Source: Actinomycetota bacterium (lineage in GTDB: Bacteria > Actinomycetota > Acidimicrobiia > Spongiisociales > UBA11373). Taken from it: a stretch of DNA of 49,476 bases. The stretch covers positions 1 through 49,476 of the forward strand of contig JAHLKU010000015.1 in NCBI GenBank assembly GCA_020444505.1, read 5' to 3'. Below are positions 910-32,415 of this stretch, piece after piece; the stretch's first letter is position 1; every line of letters begins with the position of its first letter. Made by a program: the position numbers and the translations under genes. The notes under the pieces were generated by a model that ran no database searches, had not been told where the DNA came from, and was given only the letters and a program-made list of their open reading frames with translations.

Positions 910-3759
910 ATGATCGAACGTGAACCCACCCCCATGCCCGCGCGCCGATCCGTCGGCGCGGGCCGCCGCTGGCTCATCATTGCCCTGGTGGTCTTGGCCG
1001 TCCTGGTCCTGTCGTTGCGCGGTATCGCCACGTTCTGGACCGACTACCTCTGGTTCGACTCCGTGGACTACGGCTCGGTGTGGTCGACGCTCGTCGTCAC
1101 CAGGATCGTCCTGGTGGTCCTCGCCACCGTGGTGGCGGCGCTGCTGCTGTTCGGCAACCTCTTCATGGCCGACCGGCTGTCGCCCAAGACCCTGCGGGGC
1201 ACCGGCAGCCCCGACGAGGAGCTCATCGAGCGCTACCAGGCCTGGGCACGGCCCCGCATCACCTGGCTCCGGCTGGCGGTCGCCGGGTTCTTCGGGCTGC
1301 TGATCGGCCTCGGTGCGAGCGCCTGGTGGGAGAACTGGCTGCTGTTCTCCAACGCCGAGAGCTTCGGGGTCACCGACCCGGTGTTCAACAACGACATCAG
1401 CTTCTACGTGTTCAAGGTGCCGTTCTACCGGGACCTGTTCGCCTGGGGCTTCCAGCTGGTGCTGATCACCACGCTGATCGTCGCCGCCCTCCACTACCTC
1501 AACGGCGGCATCCAGGTGCAGGCCCGGCCGGGGGAGCGCATCTCGTCGGGGGTGAAGGTGCACCTGTCGGTGCTGCTGGCCACCCTCGCCGTGCTGAAGG
1601 CCGTCGCCTACTACCTGGACCAGTTCGACCTGCTCTACTCGTCCCGGGGCTTCGTGGCCGGCGCCGCCTACACCGACGTCACCGCACAGCTGCCTGCAGT
1701 GCGGCTGCTGATCTTCATCTCCCTGTTCGCCGCGATCCTGCTGCTGGTGAACATCCGCTTCCAGGGCTGGGTGCTGCCGGCCGCCGCCGTCGGCCTGTGG
1801 GCCGTCACCTCCTTCGTGGTGGGCTTCGTCATCCCCGAGGCGGTGCAGCGGTTCAGCGTCGAGCCGAACGAGATCAACCGGGAGCTGCCCTACATCGAGA
1901 GGAACATCGAGTTCACGAGGGCGGCGTTCGGGCTGGACGACATCGAGACGAAGGCCTTCGAGGCGTCGGAGGACCTCGACAGCGGGGACATCGCCGCCAA
2001 CGCCCCGATCATCGACAACATCCGGCTCTGGGACCCGACGGTCCTGCTCACCACGTACCGGCAGCTGCAGGAGCTGCGGCCCTTCTACCAGTTCGACGAC
2101 GTGGATGTGGACCGGTACCTGCTCGACGGCCAGCTGACCCAGGTGATGCTGGCGGCGCGCGAGTTGGACACCGCCGGCGTGCCGGAGGACAACTGGGTGA
2201 ACCAGCACCTGGTGTACACCCACGGGTACGGGGCGGTGCTGTCGCCGGCCAACACGGTCACCACCGACGGCCAGCCCGACTTCCTGGTGCGTGACATCAA
2301 TCCCGACGACGGGTCGCCTCCCGAGGTGGCGATCGACCAGGCGAGGATCTACTTCGGTGAGGAGTCCGGTCTGGGCGACTTCGTCATCGTGGGCAGCAAC
2401 GAGCGCGAGGTCGACTTCCCGCTCGAGACGGCGGGGGCCGAGACCGTGGCGTTCAACTCCTACGACGGCGAGGGCGGCATCGAGGTGGGCGGGTTCTTCC
2501 GCAGGGCCGCGTTTGCCCTCCGCTTCGCCGACGTCAACACCCTCATCTCCGGCCAGGTGACCGGCGACTCGCGGGTGCTGCTGGTCCGCAACATCCGGGA
2601 GCGATTCGCCAAGGCGGCGCCGTTCCTGCGCATGGACACCGATCCGTATCTGGCCATCGTCGACGGCCGCCTGGTGTGGATCGCCGACCTGTACACGGTC
2701 ACCGACCGCTACCCGTACTCGTCGCTGGCCGACAAGACGCGGCTCAGCACCGCCTCGGGCCTGTGGGACGTGGACTTCAACTACATCCGCAACAGCGTCA
2801 AGGGCACCGTCGACGCCTACGACGGCACCATCACCATGTACGTCATCGACGAGAGCGATGCCATGGTGCGGGCCTACCGCAACGTCTTCCCGGCGCTGTT
2901 CACCGACGGCGACCAGATGCCGGCGGCGGTGCGGGAGCACCTGCGGTACCCCGAGGACCTGTTCAAGGTGCAGGCCAACATGTTCACCCGCTGGCACATG
3001 ACCGAAGCCCGGGTGTTCTTCAACAACGGCGACCCGTGGCAGATCGCCCGCGACCCGTCCACCATCGGCGGCGCGAGCAGCACCGAGGCGCGGCTGATGA
3101 ACCCGTACTACCTGCTGATGTCGCTGCCGGACGAGGAGGACCTGTCCTACCTGTTGCTGCAGCCGTTCACCGCCGCCGACCGCCCCAACATGGTGTCGTT
3201 CGTGGTGGCCAAGAGCGACCCCGACACCTACGGCGAGATGATCAACTTCGAGTTGCCGCGCGACTCGTTCGTGGACGGTCCCGGCCAGATCGGAGCGCGC
3301 ATCAACCAGGACCCCGACATCTCCCGCGAGTTCACCCTGCTGGGCCAGGAGGGCTCGGAGGTGATCCAGGGGAACTTGCTGGTGGTGCCGATCGAGTCGT
3401 CGATCCTGTACGTGCAGCCCATCTACCTGCAGGGCAGCAACGACACCGCCCTGCCCGAGTTCAAGCGGGTGGTGGTGGTGTTCGGCGACCGCATCGTGAT
3501 GCGGGACACCCTCGCCGAGGCCCTGCTGGACGTGTTCGGCGACGCCCCGCCGGAGACCATCGAGCCGACCGAGCCCACCGAGCCCGGCCAGCCGGCCGAG
3601 GTGGACGCCAGGGTCGTGGCCCTGCTCACCCAGGCCGAGGCGGCGTTCCAGCGGGCCGACACCGCGCTGCGGGCCGGGGACCTGGGCGCCTACGCCGACG
3701 AGATCGCCGAGGCGCAGCGCCTGGTCGAGCAGGCCACCGCCCTCATCGAGGCTCCCTGA
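910..3759 (+). CDS. UPF0182 family membrane protein
   Basis: A 949-aa protein with about seven hydrophobic helices in the first 310 residues (near 20-45, 60-80, 115-135, 172-192, 215-235, 255-275 and 285-308), followed by a large soluble, probably extracytoplasmic domain. Family-typical segments include TDYLWFDSV after the first helix, NDISFYVFKVPFYRDLF, and ERNIEFTRAAFGLD at the start of the soluble part. UPF0182 proteins are common in actinobacteria and have no assigned function. The C-terminus is an acidic Pro-Thr linker and a short Ala-rich amphipathic helix. The ATG at 910 lacks a ribosome binding site but sits just after a TAGAAT box; an internal ATG at 943 also lacks one. A strong terminator follows. 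Confidence 0.93.
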   Translation: MIEREPTPMPARRSVGAGRRWLIIALVVLAVLVLSLRGIATFWTDYLWFDSVDYGSVWSTLVVTRIVLVVLATVVAALLLFGNLFMADRLSPKTLRGTGSPDEELIERYQAWARPRITWLRLAVAGFFGLLIGLGASAWWENWLLFSNAESFGVTDPVFNNDISFYVFKVPFYRDLFAWGFQLVLITTLIVAALHYLNGGIQVQARPGERISSGVKVHLSVLLATLAVLKAVAYYLDQFDLLYSSRGFVAGAAYTDVTAQLPAVRLLIFISLFAAILLLVNIRFQGWVLPAAAVGLWAVTSFVVGFVIPEAVQRFSVEPNEINRELPYIERNIEFTRAAFGLDDIETKAFEASEDLDSGDIAANAPIIDNIRLWDPTVLLTTYRQLQELRPFYQFDDVDVDRYLLDGQLTQVMLAARELDTAGVPEDNWVNQHLVYTHGYGAVLSPANTVTTDGQPDFLVRDINPDDGSPPEVAIDQARIYFGEESGLGDFVIVGSNEREVDFPLETAGAETVAFNSYDGEGGIEVGGFFRRAAFALRFADVNTLISGQVTGDSRVLLVRNIRERFAKAAPFLRMDTDPYLAIVDGRLVWIADLYTVTDRYPYSSLADKTRLSTASGLWDVDFNYIRNSVKGTVDAYDGTITMYVIDESDAMVRAYRNVFPALFTDGDQMPAAVREHLRYPEDLFKVQANMFTRWHMTEARVFFNNGDPWQIARDPSTIGGASSTEARLMNPYYLLMSLPDEEDLSYLLLQPFTAADRPNMVSFVVAKSDPDTYGEMINFELPRDSFVDGPGQIGARINQDPDISREFTLLGQEGSEVIQGNLLVVPIESSILYVQPIYLQGSNDTALPEFKRVVVVFGDRIVMRDTLAEALLDVFGDAPPETIEPTEPTEPGQPAEVDARVVALLTQAEAAFQRADTALRAGDLGAYADEIAEAQRLVEQATALIEAP

Positions 3760-3779
3760 CGGCCCGGCCTTCGAACGGG

Positions 3780-3809
3780 AAGAGCCCCCGGGGATTCCCG
3801 GGGGCTCTT
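3780..3809. terminator. Bidirectional intrinsic terminator between UPF0182 and PorA-like genes
   Basis: A perfect 13-bp stem (3780-3792 with 3797-3809) around a GATT loop lies between convergent genes. Its AAGAG/CTCTT ends give a short T-rich tail on both strands. Confidence 0.85.
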
Positions 3810-3829
3810 CGTTCGTCCGGTCCGGTCTC

Positions 3830-4870
3830 CTACGCGGCGGCTGCGGCCTCGTCCTCCTTGCGGAAGGCGAAGAACCCGCCGCCCAGCGCCAGCACGGCGC
3901 CCAGGCCGATGGCCAGGTAGGGCACGATGACGCCGAACAGGTTGAGCAGGCTCTGCCCGTCCTCGGCGTCCACCTTGGCATCGGCGATGGCGTCGTCGGT
4001 GTGCTGGTACACCAGGCCGAGCACCGGCCCGACCGGGGCGATCCCGCCGGGGATCGCATCGGCCATGATGGCGAGGACGATCGCCTCGTCCTTGGTGTAG
4101 TCGATCAGCACGCCGGTCGCCGGGTCCACCCAGTAGTTGGTCTCGTACTCGTACAGGTACGTGAACGGGACCGGGTCGGGCAGCGCCGGCAGGATCTGGC
4201 CGAGCATCGGCAGCATGTCCTCGGGCGCCAGCGACGGGGCGAGCGCCGTGACGGTGGCCAGCGGCAGCCCGGCCGGGAACATGGCCAGGGTCGCCGGGTC
4301 GGTGATCGGAGCGATCGCCGACTGCGCCCGGAAGTGGTACAGATCCCACCCGGCGCGCTCTTCCTCGGCCACGAACTCCAGCGGCACGACCTTCTGGAAG
4401 TAGTCCGACCACCCGTCGTACGTCTTCTTCTCGGTCCCGATCGGGAACCCGACCACCAGGCCCTGCCGTGCGTCGATCACGTCCGGGTTGTCGGTGAAGT
4501 TGGGGATGTGCTCCATCGTCTTGCGATCGATGGTGTACCAGTCCTCACTCCCCAGCGGCAGCGGGGTCCCGTCGGCCGCCGTCATGGTCGCCACCTCGTG
4601 CACCAGCGCCTTGCCGCCGTCGGTCTCCTCGGTGGTCACATGGCGGGACAGGTTGATCGGGATGTTCTCCATGAAGATGTTCGCCATGTCGCCGGTCGCC
4701 AGGGCGTCGGCGTTCAGCATCACCTCCAGGGTGCCCTCGTAGGTGCGGGTGGAGTCGACGTCGTCGGGGAACACCGCCAGCGCCGGCACCACCACGAACT
4801 TGACGATCAGGCCTGCCACGATCAGCAGGACGCCCAATCCCAATGCGATGAACGGTCCGGTCTTCTTCAT
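3830..4870 (-). CDS. PorA/DUF3068 family protein
   Basis: A 346-aa protein with an N-terminal signal-anchor helix (residues 5-32, FIALGLGVLLIVAGLIV), a long extracytoplasmic beta-rich domain (with RTYEGTLEVML, EDWYTIDRKT and FPIGTEKKTYDGW), and a C-terminal helix (about 315-337) ending in basic and Ala-rich residues. This two-anchor layout is typical of the PorA/DUF3068 family found in actinobacteria. Some members are linked to cell-envelope porin activity, but pore formation here is not shown. The ATG at 4870 is chosen because GGGAGAGG lies just upstream and the membrane anchor begins there; the longer open frame upstream has no such support. Confidence 0.82.
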   Translation of the reverse strand: MKKTGPFIALGLGVLLIVAGLIVKFVVVPALAVFPDDVDSTRTYEGTLEVMLNADALATGDMANIFMENIPINLSRHVTTEETDGGKALVHEVATMTAADGTPLPLGSEDWYTIDRKTMEHIPNFTDNPDVIDARQGLVVGFPIGTEKKTYDGWSDYFQKVVPLEFVAEEERAGWDLYHFRAQSAIAPITDPATLAMFPAGLPLATVTALAPSLAPEDMLPMLGQILPALPDPVPFTYLYEYETNYWVDPATGVLIDYTKDEAIVLAIMADAIPGGIAPVGPVLGLVYQHTDDAIADAKVDAEDGQSLLNLFGVIVPYLAIGLGAVLALGGGFFAFRKEDEAAAAA

Positions 4871-5001
4871 ACCTCTCCCATGCTCGATCCGTGAGATGAA
4901 CCTCCCTGCAACGCTACGCGAGCGGTGCCGGGCATGCGGTGCCCGGGGCACGTCCGGGCTTCCGGTTGGGCACGCAGCGCTGGTACAGTTCGTCCCTACG
5001 A

Positions 5002-5153
<152 letters not shown>

Positions 5154-5222
5154 TGTGGTCGGGTGCGTTGGCCCGGTGGGGTGGTGGTGGTCGGGTGCGG
5201 TCCGGGGTGGTTGCGCGTCGAC

Positions 5223-5322
5223 GGTTCGAATCCCGCCCCCGCTACGAAGCAGGAACCCGGCCTCTGGGCCGGGTTCTTCGCGTCGGGGGGTGGTGGTGTC
5301 TGTGGGCCTTGCGGTGGCGGGG
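5223..5322 (+). repeat. 100-bp direct repeat, copy 2 (pseudo-tRNA 3' fragment plus terminator)
   Basis: Second copy of the repeat beginning in the tRNA-fMet T-arm. It has no anticodon or D-arm upstream, and its own T-stem cannot form (GACGG facing CCCGC), so it is not a working tRNA. The terminator copy at 5251-5278 is identical to copy 1. The 69-bp stretch between the repeats (5154-5222) is G-rich with no recognisable feature. Confidence 0.9.
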
Positions 5323-5335
5323 CCTGCTGTTGCTC

Positions 5336-5500
5336 GTGACGCCCTCCCGACGCGGCGAGGAGCGGGCCGATCTCGAGGAGGCCATCACGGGAGGGAGGTT
5401 CCCCTACGAGCCGCACGCCCGGGGGACGGCCGACCTGAGAGACGAGGTGCCGGAGCCGGCCGAGGAGGGAGACGGGCCCTCCGAGGAGCAGGATCGCTGA
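5336..5500 (+). CDS. Possible 54-aa acidic protein
   Basis: A GTG-initiated frame encodes 54 residues rich in Glu, Asp, Arg and Pro (with ADLEEAITGG and FPYEPHARG), ending just before a terminator-like hairpin. No convincing ribosome binding site is seen, and the frame is also open upstream through the repeat. The composition looks like real coding sequence rather than a shadow frame, and there is no gene opposite. I do not recognise it; it could be the remnant of a longer gene cut by the upstream duplication. Confidence 0.35.
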   Translation: MTPSRRGEERADLEEAITGGRFPYEPHARGTADLRDEVPEPAEEGDGPSEEQDR

Positions 5501-5523
5501 TCCCATCCCTCCCGGCTGCGAGC

Positions 5524-5551
5524 AGGGACCCGGCCTCTGGGCCGGGTCCCT
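5524..5551. terminator. Third copy of the tRNA-type terminator
   Basis: A perfect 12-bp stem (5524-5535 with 5540-5551) with the same TCTG loop and the same flanks as the tRNA terminator. An A-U pair is changed to G-C on both sides and a G-U pair is repaired to G-C. It lies between the small + frame and the end of the - strand VIT gene, so it could stop transcription from both sides. Confidence 0.75.
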
Positions 5552-5593
5552 CGCGTCGGGCGGGTCCGGTCCCGGGCGGGGCTGCGTCGGCGG

Positions 5594-6718
5594 TCAGCCG
5601 CCGACGGCGGTGCCCAGCAGGGTGCCGATCCCGAACGTGGCGCCGGCGGCGACGAGGCCGAGCAGCAGCGACCGGGTCCCGGTGCGGAGGATGCCGGTCC
5701 CGGTGACGAGTGCGGTCGTCAGGCCCAGGAGGAACAGGCCGAGCGCGGCCGCCCCCAGGCTGGCGACGACCGCCCATGCTCCGTCGAGGAAGAAGAACGG
5801 CACCACCGGGATGATCGCCCCGATCGAGAAGAGGAAGAACGACGTGCCGGCCGCCTCCCACGCAGATCCGCCCAGGTCCTGTGGATCGATGCCGAGCTCC
5901 TCGCGGACCTTCGTCTCGAGGAACGCCTCCGGGTCGGCCATCACGTCGGTCGCCGCCCGGCGCGCCTGGTCGGGGGTCATCCCCTTCGCCTCGTAGATGA
6001 GGGCGAGCTCCTCTGCCTCCGCCTCGGGCATGGCGAGGATCTCCTCCCGCTCGGTCCGGATCTGCGCCTCGTGCAGCTCGCGCGAGCTCTGCACCGACAG
6101 CCACTCTCCCAGCGCCATCGAGACGGCGCCGGCGAGGAGGCCCGCCAGCCCAGAGATCAGCACCGCGGTGGCCGAGAAGGACGCCCCCGCCACTCCCATG
6201 ACCAGCGACGTGTTCGACACCAGCCCGTCGTTGGCGCCGAGGACGGCGGCGCGCAGCGCATTGCCGCCCACCGCCCGGTGTCGCCCTTCGAGCCTGGCGA
6301 GAACCCTGCCGCGCACCCCGCCGCGGGCTTCCTTGCGCAGCGCGTCGAGCATCACGGCGTGCGATCGCTCGTCGGCGGGCAGTGAGGTGCCGGCCGCCTC
6401 GGGCTGGTCGTCGTACATCGTGCGGCCCGTCATCTCGGTAGACGCCATCACCTGGGTGAGCACGCCGGGGCCGAGCCTGCGGGCCAGCCAGGCCAGGATC
6501 CGCGACCGGCGGTCGGGCCGGCGCTCGGGTGGCTCCTCGCCGGCCTCGCGGAGCTGGCGCTCCCACAGCTCGGCATGCCGCTCCTCGGTCTCGGCGAGCC
6601 GGCGGTACACCCCGCTGATGGTCTCGTCGCTCTCCAGGTCGGCGGCCACCCGGTAGAGGTAGGCGGCGTTGACCTCGTCGGTGAAGTTGGCTCGGTAGCG
6701 CTCGGTGTCGCTCGGCAT
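5594..6718 (-). CDS. Ferritin-like/rubrerythrin domain fused to VIT1/CCC1 iron transporter
   Basis: A 374-aa protein. Residues 1-145 form a ferritin-like diiron domain with Glu in FTDEVNAAYLY, an ExxH motif in ETEERHAELW and a second in PADERSHAVM. Residues 150-374 are a VIT1/CCC1 membrane domain with ALRAAVLGANDGLVSNTSLVMGV, a cytoplasmic metal-binding-type Glu-rich helix (RTEREEILAMPEAEAEEL) and further helices. This is the MbfA-type architecture, in which the diiron domain senses or delivers Fe(II) to a transporter that moves Fe or Mn out of the cytoplasm. The ATG at 6718 is supported by GAGGAG 8 nt upstream. No iron-box-like operator was recognised. Confidence 0.9.
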   Translation of the reverse strand: MPSDTERYRANFTDEVNAAYLYRVAADLESDETISGVYRRLAETEERHAELWERQLREAGEEPPERRPDRRSRILAWLARRLGPGVLTQVMASTEMTGRTMYDDQPEAAGTSLPADERSHAVMLDALRKEARGGVRGRVLARLEGRHRAVGGNALRAAVLGANDGLVSNTSLVMGVAGASFSATAVLISGLAGLLAGAVSMALGEWLSVQSSRELHEAQIRTEREEILAMPEAEAEELALIYEAKGMTPDQARRAATDVMADPEAFLETKVREELGIDPQDLGGSAWEAAGTSFFLFSIGAIIPVVPFFFLDGAWAVVASLGAAALGLFLLGLTTALVTGTGILRTGTRSLLLGLVAAGATFGIGTLLGTAVGG

Positions 6719-29108: not shown

Positions 29109-30509
29109 TCAGACGCCGGCAGGCAGCGACTCCAGGACGTCGGCGGGTTGCAGGCCCAGTGCCGCCGGCCCGACCTGATCCACGATGTCGCGTGCCGAGA
29201 AGGCCACCGGCTCCGGGGCGGCGACCGGGTTCCCCGCCGCATCGCGGACCACCACCGCCGCCGGCATCGCCCCCGGGTCGGGGGAGGGGGAGACCACCAT
29301 GACGACGGCTCCCGAGGTGAGGCGGAGGAACGTGCCGGGCGGGTAGATGCCCATCATCGAGGCGAACGCGGTCACGAAGTCCGGGTCGTACGAGCGGCCC
29401 GCCTCCGCCAGCAGGACCTGCAGGGCGCGGCTCGGCGACTCGGCCCGGCGGTAGGAGCGGCGGGTGGTGATCGCGTCGTAGGTGTCGGCGACGGCGACCA
29501 GCCGGCTGTAGAAGTGGAGGGGGTGCCGGCCGCCGGTGCCGTGGCCGTGGCCGTGGTGGTGCCCGCCCTCCCCGTGGGGGTGCCGGGTGCCGTCGTGGTA
29601 CACCAGACGCGGGTACCCGGAGCCGTCGAAGCGGGCGTGGTGCTCGAAGGCGACCACGGCGGCCAGTTCCTCGCCCGGGGCGGCGGCCCGCAGGATCGCC
29701 TCGGCGCCCAGTTGCGGGTGGCGGCGGATCTCGGCCCACTGGTCGGCGTCCAGGCGCCCGGGGTGCTGCAGGACCGCTCTCGACACCCCGATCTTGCCGA
29801 TGTCGTGCAGCATCGCCCCGATGCCCAGCACCACCTGGTCCCGCTCGGGCAGGCCCGTGAGTCGGGCCAGGCTGAGCGACAGGATGCTGGTGTTGACCGA
29901 GTGGTAGAAGGTGTACTCGTGGTGGCTCTTCACCGTGGAGAGCAGCAGGGTCGCCGCCGGGTTCTCGAGGCTCTTGTCCAGCAGGTCCTTCACCACCGCG
30001 GCGGTGTCCTCCAGCGTCGGCGGATCGCCGTCCACCACCGATCGGCCGAAGCCCCGCAGCGCGTCGAGCGAGCGGGTGTAGGCCCGCCGGAGGCGGGCCA
30101 CCGGGGTCGTGTCGTCGGCCGCCACCGCAACCCCTTTCGCGCCGTTCACCACGATGCTGCCGCCGGTCGGCCCGCCGCCCTCTCCGGCGATGAGGTGGAC
30201 CAGGGCCGCGGCGTCGGCGTGGGACACCGGGGGCGTGGCGATGACCGTCTCGATCCCGGCGGCCAGCACCTCGCGCACGAACGCGTTGAACTGCAGGGAG
30301 ATCAGACCGAGGGCGTGACCGTCGAGGAACAGGGTGTCGTCGGCCGCTCCGAGCATGATCCCGGCGCGGTCGCCGATCAGGCCGTCGAGGGCGGCGGCCG
30401 TCTCACGCACCGCCTCCTCGGTGAGTGCGTGCCGGGGACCGTACAGCCGGACGTAGCCGGTGGCCCTTCGCAGGGCGCGGACGACGGCGGCGGCGCGTGC
30501 TTCACTCAC
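29109..30509 (-). CDS. HD-GYP domain protein with His-rich loop and new N-terminal domain
   Basis: A 466-aa protein. The HD-GYP phosphodiesterase domain spans about 195-400: HSVNTSILSLSLA, MLHDIGKIGV (HD pair), FEHHARFDGSGYPR (GYP), and ADTYDAITTRRSYR. Such domains hydrolyse cyclic di-GMP. A loop after GYP carries at least nine His (GEGGHHHGHGHG and flanks), which is unusual. The N-terminal 8-109 forms a domain shared with the upstream HEAT protein. Start GTG 30509: AGGAGG 6 nt upstream, and 8-bp overlap with the end of the HEAT gene (GTGAGTGA). The C-terminal 60 residues are a small beta-rich domain. Confidence 0.9.
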   Translation of the reverse strand: MSEARAAAVVRALRRATGYVRLYGPRHALTEEAVRETAAALDGLIGDRAGIMLGAADDTLFLDGHALGLISLQFNAFVREVLAAGIETVIATPPVSHADAAALVHLIAGEGGGPTGGSIVVNGAKGVAVAADDTTPVARLRRAYTRSLDALRGFGRSVVDGDPPTLEDTAAVVKDLLDKSLENPAATLLLSTVKSHHEYTFYHSVNTSILSLSLARLTGLPERDQVVLGIGAMLHDIGKIGVSRAVLQHPGRLDADQWAEIRRHPQLGAEAILRAAAPGEELAAVVAFEHHARFDGSGYPRLVYHDGTRHPHGEGGHHHGHGHGTGGRHPLHFYSRLVAVADTYDAITTRRSYRRAESPSRALQVLLAEAGRSYDPDFVTAFASMMGIYPPGTFLRLTSGAVVMVVSPSPDPGAMPAAVVVRDAAGNPVAAPEPVAFSARDIVDQVGPAALGLQPADVLESLPAGV

Positions 30510-32415
30510 GGTGGGCCTCCTGTGCCGTGCGAGCCGCCCTGCGCAGCGCACGCGCCCGGCCGAACCACGCTCTGCGTCCGGCCAGGGCGGCGAGGGCGGT
30601 GCGGGCCTCGCCGGTGGACCGCCACCCGAGGGCTGCGGTGGCGGCGAGCGCCGTGTCGAGGTCGGGCGAGCGGGTGGCGTCGATCAGGCTGCGGTCGATC
30701 CCGGGGCCGCCGAGCGAGCCGAGCAGCCGTCCGGCCTCCGCTCTCACCGCCGGGTGGGCGTCGGCGAGGCGGTCCACCAACAGCCGGGCGGCGTCGGGGT
30801 CGTCGAGGCGCCGCAGCGCGCGCAGGGCCTCGATGCGCACCCGGTGGTCGCCGTGGCGGGCCGGGGGGTGGAGGGCGGCGGCGGCTTCGGCCCAGCGAGA
30901 GGTCCCGAGGGCGACCACGGCGTTGCGTACCACGTGCCAGCGTTCGTCGGCCAGGTGGGGCAGCAGCGCCGCCGGCTGGTGGCGGGCGGCCACCTGGAGC
31001 GCCCGGAGCAGCCCCTTGCGGCGGCTCTTGCGGTCCTCGGCGGCCAGTTCCTCCACCAGCAGGTCGACGGCGAACAGCGGCGCCGCCCTGGCGACGACCG
31101 CCCCGGGCGCCCCGTCCCCGGGAGGCTCGGCCAGCACGGTGGCGACGGCGGCGAGCGACGGCCGTCCGACGGCGGCGCGCAGCGCGCCCATCAGCGTGCG
31201 CCGGTCGGCGGGGGAGACACCGGGCTCGAGGGCGGCCGTCATCCAGTCGTCGGCGGTGCCCAGGTCGCCGGCCTCCAGGGCGCCGGCCACACGGGACGCC
31301 CACACCTCGGAGATCCCGGCCATCTCGCCGTCGGCGGCGGACAGCTTCAGCATGCCGCGCAGCAGGTTGGCGACCGACCGGTGAGCGTCACCGCCGTCCG
31401 GCAGCGACGCCGCGATCCTGGCGAGGGCCTCCTCGGTGGCGCCCCGGCCCGACCGGTCCGTGGCCTGCAGCACCGTGGCCACCTGATCCACGATCTGGGC
31501 GCCGAGGGGCCGGCTGCGGTCGGTGTCGCGTGCCAGGCGGTCGGTGGGGCGGCCTCCCTCCTCACCGGCGACCCGCAGGTACTCGGCCAGCAGGGGGTGC
31601 CCGTCGGAGCCGAACATGCGGTCGAGCTCGGCGATCTCCAGCCCGCTCAACTGGTCGAGGAAGGCGGTGTTCTCGGGGCGGTGGCCCCGCTGCAGCAGCA
31701 GGGAGAAGATCGCGGCGCGGTGGGCCTCCGGCAGGTAGGAGAAGCCCTCCACGAAGGCGTGGATCAGCTCCTCCATGCCCCAGGTGTCGTCGAGGTCCAC
31801 CAGCAGGTGCGCCCGCTCGTACTCCTCGACGAACTGCAGCGCGACGTCGGCGGGCTCGGCCGACCCGTCCGACAGCATCGCGAGCACGAACGCCGCGGGG
31901 TGGTCGGTGCCGATGGCGGCCGCCCGGGTCGCGGTGTCGTCGTCGGGGGGCGTCTCGCCGCCCAGCAGCATCGCCCGGTCCAGCAGGCGGACGGAGGTGA
32001 CCCCGCGCGCCGCGAGCAGCTTGCGGGCCTCGTCCTCCCCGGTCTCCGGCCCGAGCAGGTCGAACAGGGCCAGCAGGTCGCCGGGGGACGGCGGCGCCAC
32101 GACGTCGACGGCGGCGATGCCCAGCGAGAACAGGCGGCGGGCCACTCGCAGCGAGCCCTCCCGGCGCGCGGCCACCAGCTCGCCCTGAGCCAGGAACCCG
32201 TCCACGCCGGTCTCGATCCGCCACGGGTAGGTGTGCGCCCGCCCCAGGGTCTCGACGGCGCGGGCGAAGGCGGTCTCGCCGGTGGGGTCGTCGTACAGCG
32301 TGAAGGTGGCGAAGGCCATGCCGAGCGCGTCCACCAGGGCCTCGGTGGAGGCCGGCCCGCCGGTTGCGCCCCACCCGGGGGCGGCGGCGTCGTGGCGCGT
32401 GCGGTCGTGCGGCAT
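30502..32415 (-). CDS. HEAT-repeat protein sharing its N-terminal domain with the HD-GYP protein
   Basis: A 637-aa protein without membrane segments. Residues 26-122 match the N-terminal domain of the downstream HD-GYP protein in order and spacing (ALxxAL, LY, a beta hairpin ending in G, GI, PPxS, DxxAL). A middle helical region follows (about 125-400), then helical HEAT-like repeats in the last 200 residues (HVVRNAVVALG, HRVRIEALRALRRLDDPDAARLL, HPAVRAEAGRLLGSLG). Likely a scaffold or regulator for the HD-GYP enzyme, to which it is translationally coupled by an 8-bp overlap. ATG 32415 follows GGAAGGG. Confidence 0.8.
   Translation of the reverse strand: MPHDRTRHDAAAPGWGATGGPASTEALVDALGMAFATFTLYDDPTGETAFARAVETLGRAHTYPWRIETGVDGFLAQGELVAARREGSLRVARRLFSLGIAAVDVVAPPSPGDLLALFDLLGPETGEDEARKLLAARGVTSVRLLDRAMLLGGETPPDDDTATRAAAIGTDHPAAFVLAMLSDGSAEPADVALQFVEEYERAHLLVDLDDTWGMEELIHAFVEGFSYLPEAHRAAIFSLLLQRGHRPENTAFLDQLSGLEIAELDRMFGSDGHPLLAEYLRVAGEEGGRPTDRLARDTDRSRPLGAQIVDQVATVLQATDRSGRGATEEALARIAASLPDGGDAHRSVANLLRGMLKLSAADGEMAGISEVWASRVAGALEAGDLGTADDWMTAALEPGVSPADRRTLMGALRAAVGRPSLAAVATVLAEPPGDGAPGAVVARAAPLFAVDLLVEELAAEDRKSRRKGLLRALQVAARHQPAALLPHLADERWHVVRNAVVALGTSRWAEAAAALHPPARHGDHRVRIEALRALRRLDDPDAARLLVDRLADAHPAVRAEAGRLLGSLGGPGIDRSLIDATRSPDLDTALAATAALGWRSTGEARTALAALAGRRAWFGRARALRRAARTAQEAHRE

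Follow-up and report, generated by a model that had tools for sequence, protein, structure and literature searches.

A HEAT-repeat protein and an HD-GYP protein encoded by overlapping genes share one N-terminal domain when their families are compared as profiles, and, judged by gene neighbourhoods, their pairing is ancient and the module they form is real and widespread. We regard it as an evenly balanced proposition that they represent an undescribed, phylum-spanning two-protein cyclic-dinucleotide module, built from a new domain that has no solved relative, with HEAT and HD-GYP subunits as domain-sharing partners that predate its spread across phyla, and fused in places to diguanylate cyclase and Ser/Thr kinase modules. 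Judged by titles and abstracts, none of the open-licence papers that mention HEAT repeats together with HD-GYP (three) or with c-di-GMP (seven) deals with a pair of this kind. The DNA examined, here called the window, is a stretch of 49,476 nt from an Actinomycetota bacterium (GCA_020444505.1, JAHLKU010000015.1), in which we focus on positions 29,109-32,415.

Results

The gene pair and its parts

The 8-bp overlap of the two genes claimed by the sequence-only reading is present at 30502-30509 (Table 1); on the coding strand the junction reads CACCGTGAGTGAAGC, with the TGA of the HEAT gene and the GTG of the HD-GYP gene both inside the overlap. The HEAT protein consists of an N-terminal domain (N-domain), a helical middle and a C-terminal HEAT solenoid, and its match to HEAT_2 (45.4 bits against a cut-off of 27.7, E 1e-11) places it among the HEAT-repeat proteins. 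The C-terminal half is the sole part retained by short HEAT partners, the paralogue in the same genome aligning to residues 332-630 only. The same solenoid is found in HEAT_2 and PBS-lyase-like HEAT proteins (PF13646, PF03130), from which the window protein differs in its extra unnamed N-domain and its gene link to an HD-GYP protein.

Table 1. Features of the gene pair in the window and of related loci, with positions on the respective stretch of DNA
Feature	Position	Strand	Basis or composition
HEAT-repeat partner gene	30502..32415	(-)	translation, ATG start, 637 aa
HEAT protein N-domain, ~residues 22-150	31966..32352	(-)	hhalign 96.9% to HD-GYP N-domain; AlphaFold2
HEAT protein C-terminal half, ~residues 330-630, with HEAT repeats	30526..31428	(-)	HEAT_2 stretches
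HD-GYP gene	29109..30509	(-)	translation, GTG start, 466 aa; HD_5 9.1e-19; PDB relatives PmGH 4mcw, 5z7c
HD-GYP protein N-domain, ~residues 3-121	30147..30503	(-)	hhalign; AlphaFold2
HD-GYP domain, ~residues 193-390	29340..29933	(-)	residue table aligned to PmGH
Reading-frame overlap GTGAGTGA, 8 bp	30502..30509	(-)	sequence
His/Gly-rich insert HPHGEGGHHHGHGHGTGGRHP, ~residues 304-331 of HD-GYP protein	29517..29600	(-)	alignment and sequence
Degenerate pair, same genome, contig C83 (L001)	3818-4822 and 4819-6114		N-domain absent from the short HEAT protein; HDLGR in the HD-GYP protein
L241	4024-8217		GGDEF - AAA ATPase - N-domain - HEAT, 1397 residues
L286	2577-6794		GGDEF - AAA ATPase - two N-domains - HEAT, 1406 residues
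L279 (Myxococcota)	3184-6507		Ser/Thr kinase - N-domain - degenerate HD-GYP-like - HEAT
L282 (Myxococcota)	2418-5729		Ser/Thr kinase - N-domain - degenerate HD-GYP-like - HEAT

The shared N-terminal domain

A likeness between the two N-termini had been proposed from a series of landmarks, and these lie at the claimed positions, among them LY at HEAT residues 40-41 and HD-GYP residues 22-23, LGI/AGI, DLLAL/DAAAL and, in the HD-GYP protein, PPVS; two are loose, however, the HD-GYP protein carrying AVVRAL for ALxxAL and the HEAT protein APPS for PPxS. Direct BLASTP between the two proteins returned no N-terminal similarity (best E 2.2, located elsewhere), and the two sequences alone are therefore insufficient as proof of a shared domain. 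Profiles of the N-termini were made from aligned relatives collected from whole genomes (42 HEAT, 54 HD-GYP), and hhalign matched them at 96.9% with an E of 1.6e-10 over 112 columns, as compared with less than 1% for every one of the 15 remaining pairings of segments, 0.6% for a reversed profile and at best 1.9% in 200 column shuffles. This profile-profile comparison had been named beforehand as a test that could refute the similarity, and its significant outcome upholds it, with the domain slightly longer (approximately 22-150 in the HEAT and 3-121 in the HD-GYP protein) than the 26-122 and 8-109 first given. The statement that no named family covers the segment likewise stands for Pfam, NCBIfam and PDB sequences: neither Pfam nor NCBIfam holds a model over either N-domain or over those of relatives in other phyla, and the PDB sequence search with either profile gave nothing significant (best E 0.047, an unrelated reductase).

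AlphaFold2 was run separately for each N-domain with alignment rows from its own family alone, giving a pLDDT of 85.5 and pTM of 0.80 for the HEAT N-domain and 89.8 and 0.83 for that of the HD-GYP protein. Both models follow the order helix, helix, strand hairpin, helix, strand, helix, strand. Compared as three-state secondary structure along the hhalign alignment, the models have the same assignment at 89/107 aligned positions, and at 68/68 where both are in regular structure, against 30-53% agreement when the alignment is slid by 5-15 residues. The predicted folds agree in element order and so do not refute the earlier claim, against which differing folds were to count. For neither model did Foldseek return a match better than E 0.6, and in a second fold comparison the best Z reached 4.3 with the HD-GYP N-domain (a ribosomal protein) and only 2.0 with that of the HEAT protein; the candidates from both searches were dropped, none being credible. 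As for GAF, the Foldseek rows have E of 0.6-9, the best GAF-type rows of the second comparison have Z of 2.0-2.7, and Pfam shows no match over this region even at E 10. On these predicted models the N-domain appears to be without an established relative of known fold, which does not in itself demonstrate a new fold.

The HD-GYP active site

The window HD-GYP protein resembles the HD-GYP phosphodiesterases (PmGH 4mcw; the 3'3'-cGAMP phosphodiesterase 5z7c; 4r8z) in HDxGK, HHxxxDGxGYP and the metal ligands, and is unlike them in an input domain that is not recognisably GAF, REC or a known fold, in HHA for HHE and, for proteins of its type, in a near-constant HEAT gene neighbour. In the residue table against PmGH (numbering and mutant data from PMC4159591), H203, H235-D236, K239, H264, H290-H291, GYP 298-300 and D342 are all present, so that HDxGK and the metal-ligand set are complete, and the loop motif HHExxDGxGYP reads HHARFDGSGYP, with A for E and the rest kept. 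Y199 takes the place of PmGH E185, where Y or F marks a proposed binuclear group (PMC4159591). H197 stands at PmGH D183, an essential position whose alanine mutant is inactive (PMC4159591), and activity of the window protein is for this reason not assured.

Among the Acidimicrobiia, HD-GYP proteins with a full-length HEAT partner (n=30) have the HDxGK lysine in 30/30 and the seven metal ligands in 29/30, whereas those with a short HEAT partner (n=13) have arginine for the lysine in 13/13, two having lost the HD histidine also. The catalytic residues are kept in most other phyla; the HDxGK motif is lost in four Myxococcota HD-GYP proteins.

The pair in Acidimicrobiia and in other phyla

When the whole class was searched with just the N-domain of the HD-GYP protein, 32/296 genomes contained it, and in all 55 Acidimicrobiia pair loci read (55/55) the HEAT and HD-GYP genes stand together. 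A LuxR-type response regulator gene lies immediately upstream in 40/55 and secA immediately downstream in 38/55, from which the ancestral order was likely regulator - HEAT - HD-GYP - secA - prfB. As a second copy, the window pair lies at another place and is followed by an LCP-family gene, which we rejected as an operon partner as it is retained in one congener only. The ancestral position in this genome is occupied by a degenerate pair, which sits between a LuxR-type regulator and secA. It is one of 13 paralogous Acidimicrobiia pairs whose HEAT partner has no N-domain and whose HD-GYP protein has HDxGR for HDxGK; these look like one paralogous group, and the perfect association with arginine may represent a single event.

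Whether HEAT and HD-GYP genes are neighbours elsewhere, a check suggested by the sequence-only reading, can be answered in the affirmative. One scan of 84,980 species genomes gave at least 80 HD-GYP loci of all kinds, and among the matches listed 13 of 80 have the N-domain, with a HEAT gene beside the HD-GYP gene in 13/13 of these as against 1/67 of the others (Fisher 4e-14), the sole HEAT frame among the 67 lying some kb off on the opposite strand; most of the counts in this study come from related genomes and are not independent. Pairs recur in at least five phyla (Actinomycetota, Armatimonadota, Nitrospirota, desulfobacterial lineages and Myxococcota), and this recurring linkage bears out the view that the two genes form one unit. 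The upstream partner itself carries the N-domain, among the matches listed, in other Actinomycetota (L122, L123, L125), Thermodesulfovibrionia (L124), Desulfobacteraceae (L126) and Armatimonadetes (L128), and at least seven upstream proteins, including L127, exceed the Pfam HEAT_2 cut-off. Whole-genome searches found the N-domain in 49/77 Myxococcota and 54/80 Nitrospirota genomes, including Nitrospira moscoviensis (L284), whose pair lies near 1,576,450-1,580,010 of NZ_CP011801.1; in Nitrospirota 126/148 hits fall in same-strand pairs spaced 1.6-2.4 kb apart, the longer frame coming first in 60/63. Just upstream of the Thermodesulfovibrionia pair (L124, 2548-2907) is a receiver-only response regulator frame, echoing the regulator of the Acidimicrobiia, and upstream of a Myxococcota pair is a protein with a transporter-like N-terminal part and HEAT repeats (L277, 3-2108).

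Fusions, stand-alone forms and the domain tree

Proteins of the form GGDEF-AAA-N-domain-HEAT come from two phyla (L241 and L286), and in two Myxococcota proteins (L279 and L282) a kinase precedes a single N-domain and an HD-GYP-like stretch that scores about 30 bits to degenerate HD-GYP proteins of Myxococcota. That HEAT occurs within a single polypeptide together with an HD-GYP-like domain is the best hint, on the level of sequence, that the partners associate physically. Some N-domain-HEAT proteins stand alone, with no HD-GYP gene nearby, and the HEAT partner can therefore work otherwise; they cluster with the GGDEF fusions in a tree of 98 N-domains. In this tree HEAT-side and HD-GYP-side domains fall mostly into separate groups, with 5 label changes against a shuffled mean of 33.6, which fits an old (paired) duplication, undated and with weak deep forks, the domain being short.

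Link to c-di-GMP

The window genome has four GGDEF matches and one EAL. The HEAT protein is present in 43/99 relatives searched at the order level, and the protein or pair occurs in 43/64 of those with strong GGDEF (E <1e-29) against 0/35 of those with weak or no GGDEF (Fisher 2e-12 over the 99 relatives, ignoring phylogeny). The earlier suggestion of a c-di-GMP link thus finds support in the intact HD-GYP residues, the GGDEF fusions and the restriction of the pairs to relatives with strong GGDEF, and we hold with good confidence that the module is c-di-GMP-linked.

Discussion

We consider it very probable that the HEAT and HD-GYP products act together, and with somewhat better than even confidence we propose that in c-di-GMP signalling the HEAT protein scaffolds a complex with the HD-GYP protein, the N-domain serving as an accessory docking or input element. 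The model starts from the shared domain, the ancient pairing, the fusions and the residue conservation, each read from the sequence, and would add to them a complex, a scaffold role, a substrate or ligand, an activity and a role for the domain. Each gene would supply one half of a single signalling module, in which the HEAT protein, as an alpha-solenoid scaffold, may bind the HD-GYP protein chiefly by its C-terminal HEAT part. The alpha/beta N-domain at the input end of both proteins would most likely be a docking or dimerisation element, or may take up a common upstream signal. The window HD-GYP domain, with its metal-binding residues kept, is probably a hydrolase of c-di-GMP (or of a related cyclic dinucleotide) that acts locally and under the control of its HEAT partner, and degenerate HD-GYP copies may serve as a non-catalytic receptor or adaptor. 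That the HEAT partner scaffolds or regulates the HD-GYP protein is the most likely reading, and the scaffold proposed by the sequence-only reading is plausible because natural fusions combine HEAT with an HD-GYP-like domain in a single polypeptide. As pairs persist after the HEAT partner has lost its N-domain, it is probably the HEAT part that makes the contact, the N-domain being accessory.

The earlier proposal that the two partners use one and the same domain for sensing finds no support as a universal rule: the HEAT partner is without it in 13 Acidimicrobiia pairs, and the kinase-fused Myxococcota proteins hold the N-domain once. A ligand sensor like GAF or PAS, through which both partners read the same small molecule and the HEAT protein is a second receptor and not a scaffold, is possible but doubtful: an N-terminal alpha/beta domain ahead of different outputs (HD-GYP, HEAT), and inside GGDEF-AAA and kinase fusions, would suit it, as would the many GAF domains among the weak Foldseek rows of both models, but those rows have E of 0.6 or worse, probability below 0.25 and TM of about 0.2, the single GAF row of the second fold comparison for the HEAT model has Z 2.0, and the 13 pairs outlast the loss of the domain from the HEAT partner. 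To docking or dimerisation rather than ligand sensing as the function of the N-domain we give an even chance.

Gene adjacency alone can mirror co-regulation without contact, and the occurrence of the N-domain in HEAT proteins that stand alone, as in fusions to kinase or GGDEF, would also be seen if unconnected, merely co-transcribed proteins had each acquired a common bacterial module; the persistence of adjacency across at least five phyla, the joining of HEAT to an HD-GYP-like domain in single chains and the separation of the two sides in the tree, expected of an old paired duplication, make this highly improbable. It is rather unlikely that the conserved role is non-catalytic, the HD-GYP protein being mainly a receptor or adaptor and hydrolysis secondary. 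Pairs do outlast catalytic decay, in the 13 HDxGR paralogues as in the four Myxococcota proteins without the motif, and PmGH K225A is inactive (PMC4159591), but the invariant lysine of the full-length-type Acidimicrobiia proteins and the residues kept in most other phyla point to selection for activity there.

The usual picture of an HD-GYP protein is that of a single polypeptide headed by a sensor. In the pairs described here, the same domain, as yet without a name, heads an HD-GYP protein as well as a HEAT solenoid linked to it by gene order, in many phyla and even where the enzyme has decayed, which points to a general and testable rule that a dedicated scaffold partner governs HD-GYP output. 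A large set of proteins with no annotation beyond 'HEAT repeat protein' thereby gains a function hypothesis, and the domain itself is a new family in need of a name.

RpfG (REC-HD-GYP) of Xanthomonas is not known to have a HEAT partner or a shared domain. It forms complexes with GGDEF and PilZ proteins, and its likeness to the window protein is that of an HD-GYP protein acting through protein-protein contacts (as cited in PMC4877007). The HD region of Bd1817 of Bdellovibrio (3tm8) is a sequence relative of that of the window protein and its N-terminal part is unmatched by the N-domain profiles; it was rejected as a full-length relative of solved structure, the HD region alone matching. We take Bd1817 to be an inactive HD-GYP protein and thus a precedent for catalytically inactive ones. 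Finally, the His/Gly-rich insert of the window HD-GYP protein, missing from most relatives and shorter in L065 and L063, lies directly after the GYP motif, near the metal site.
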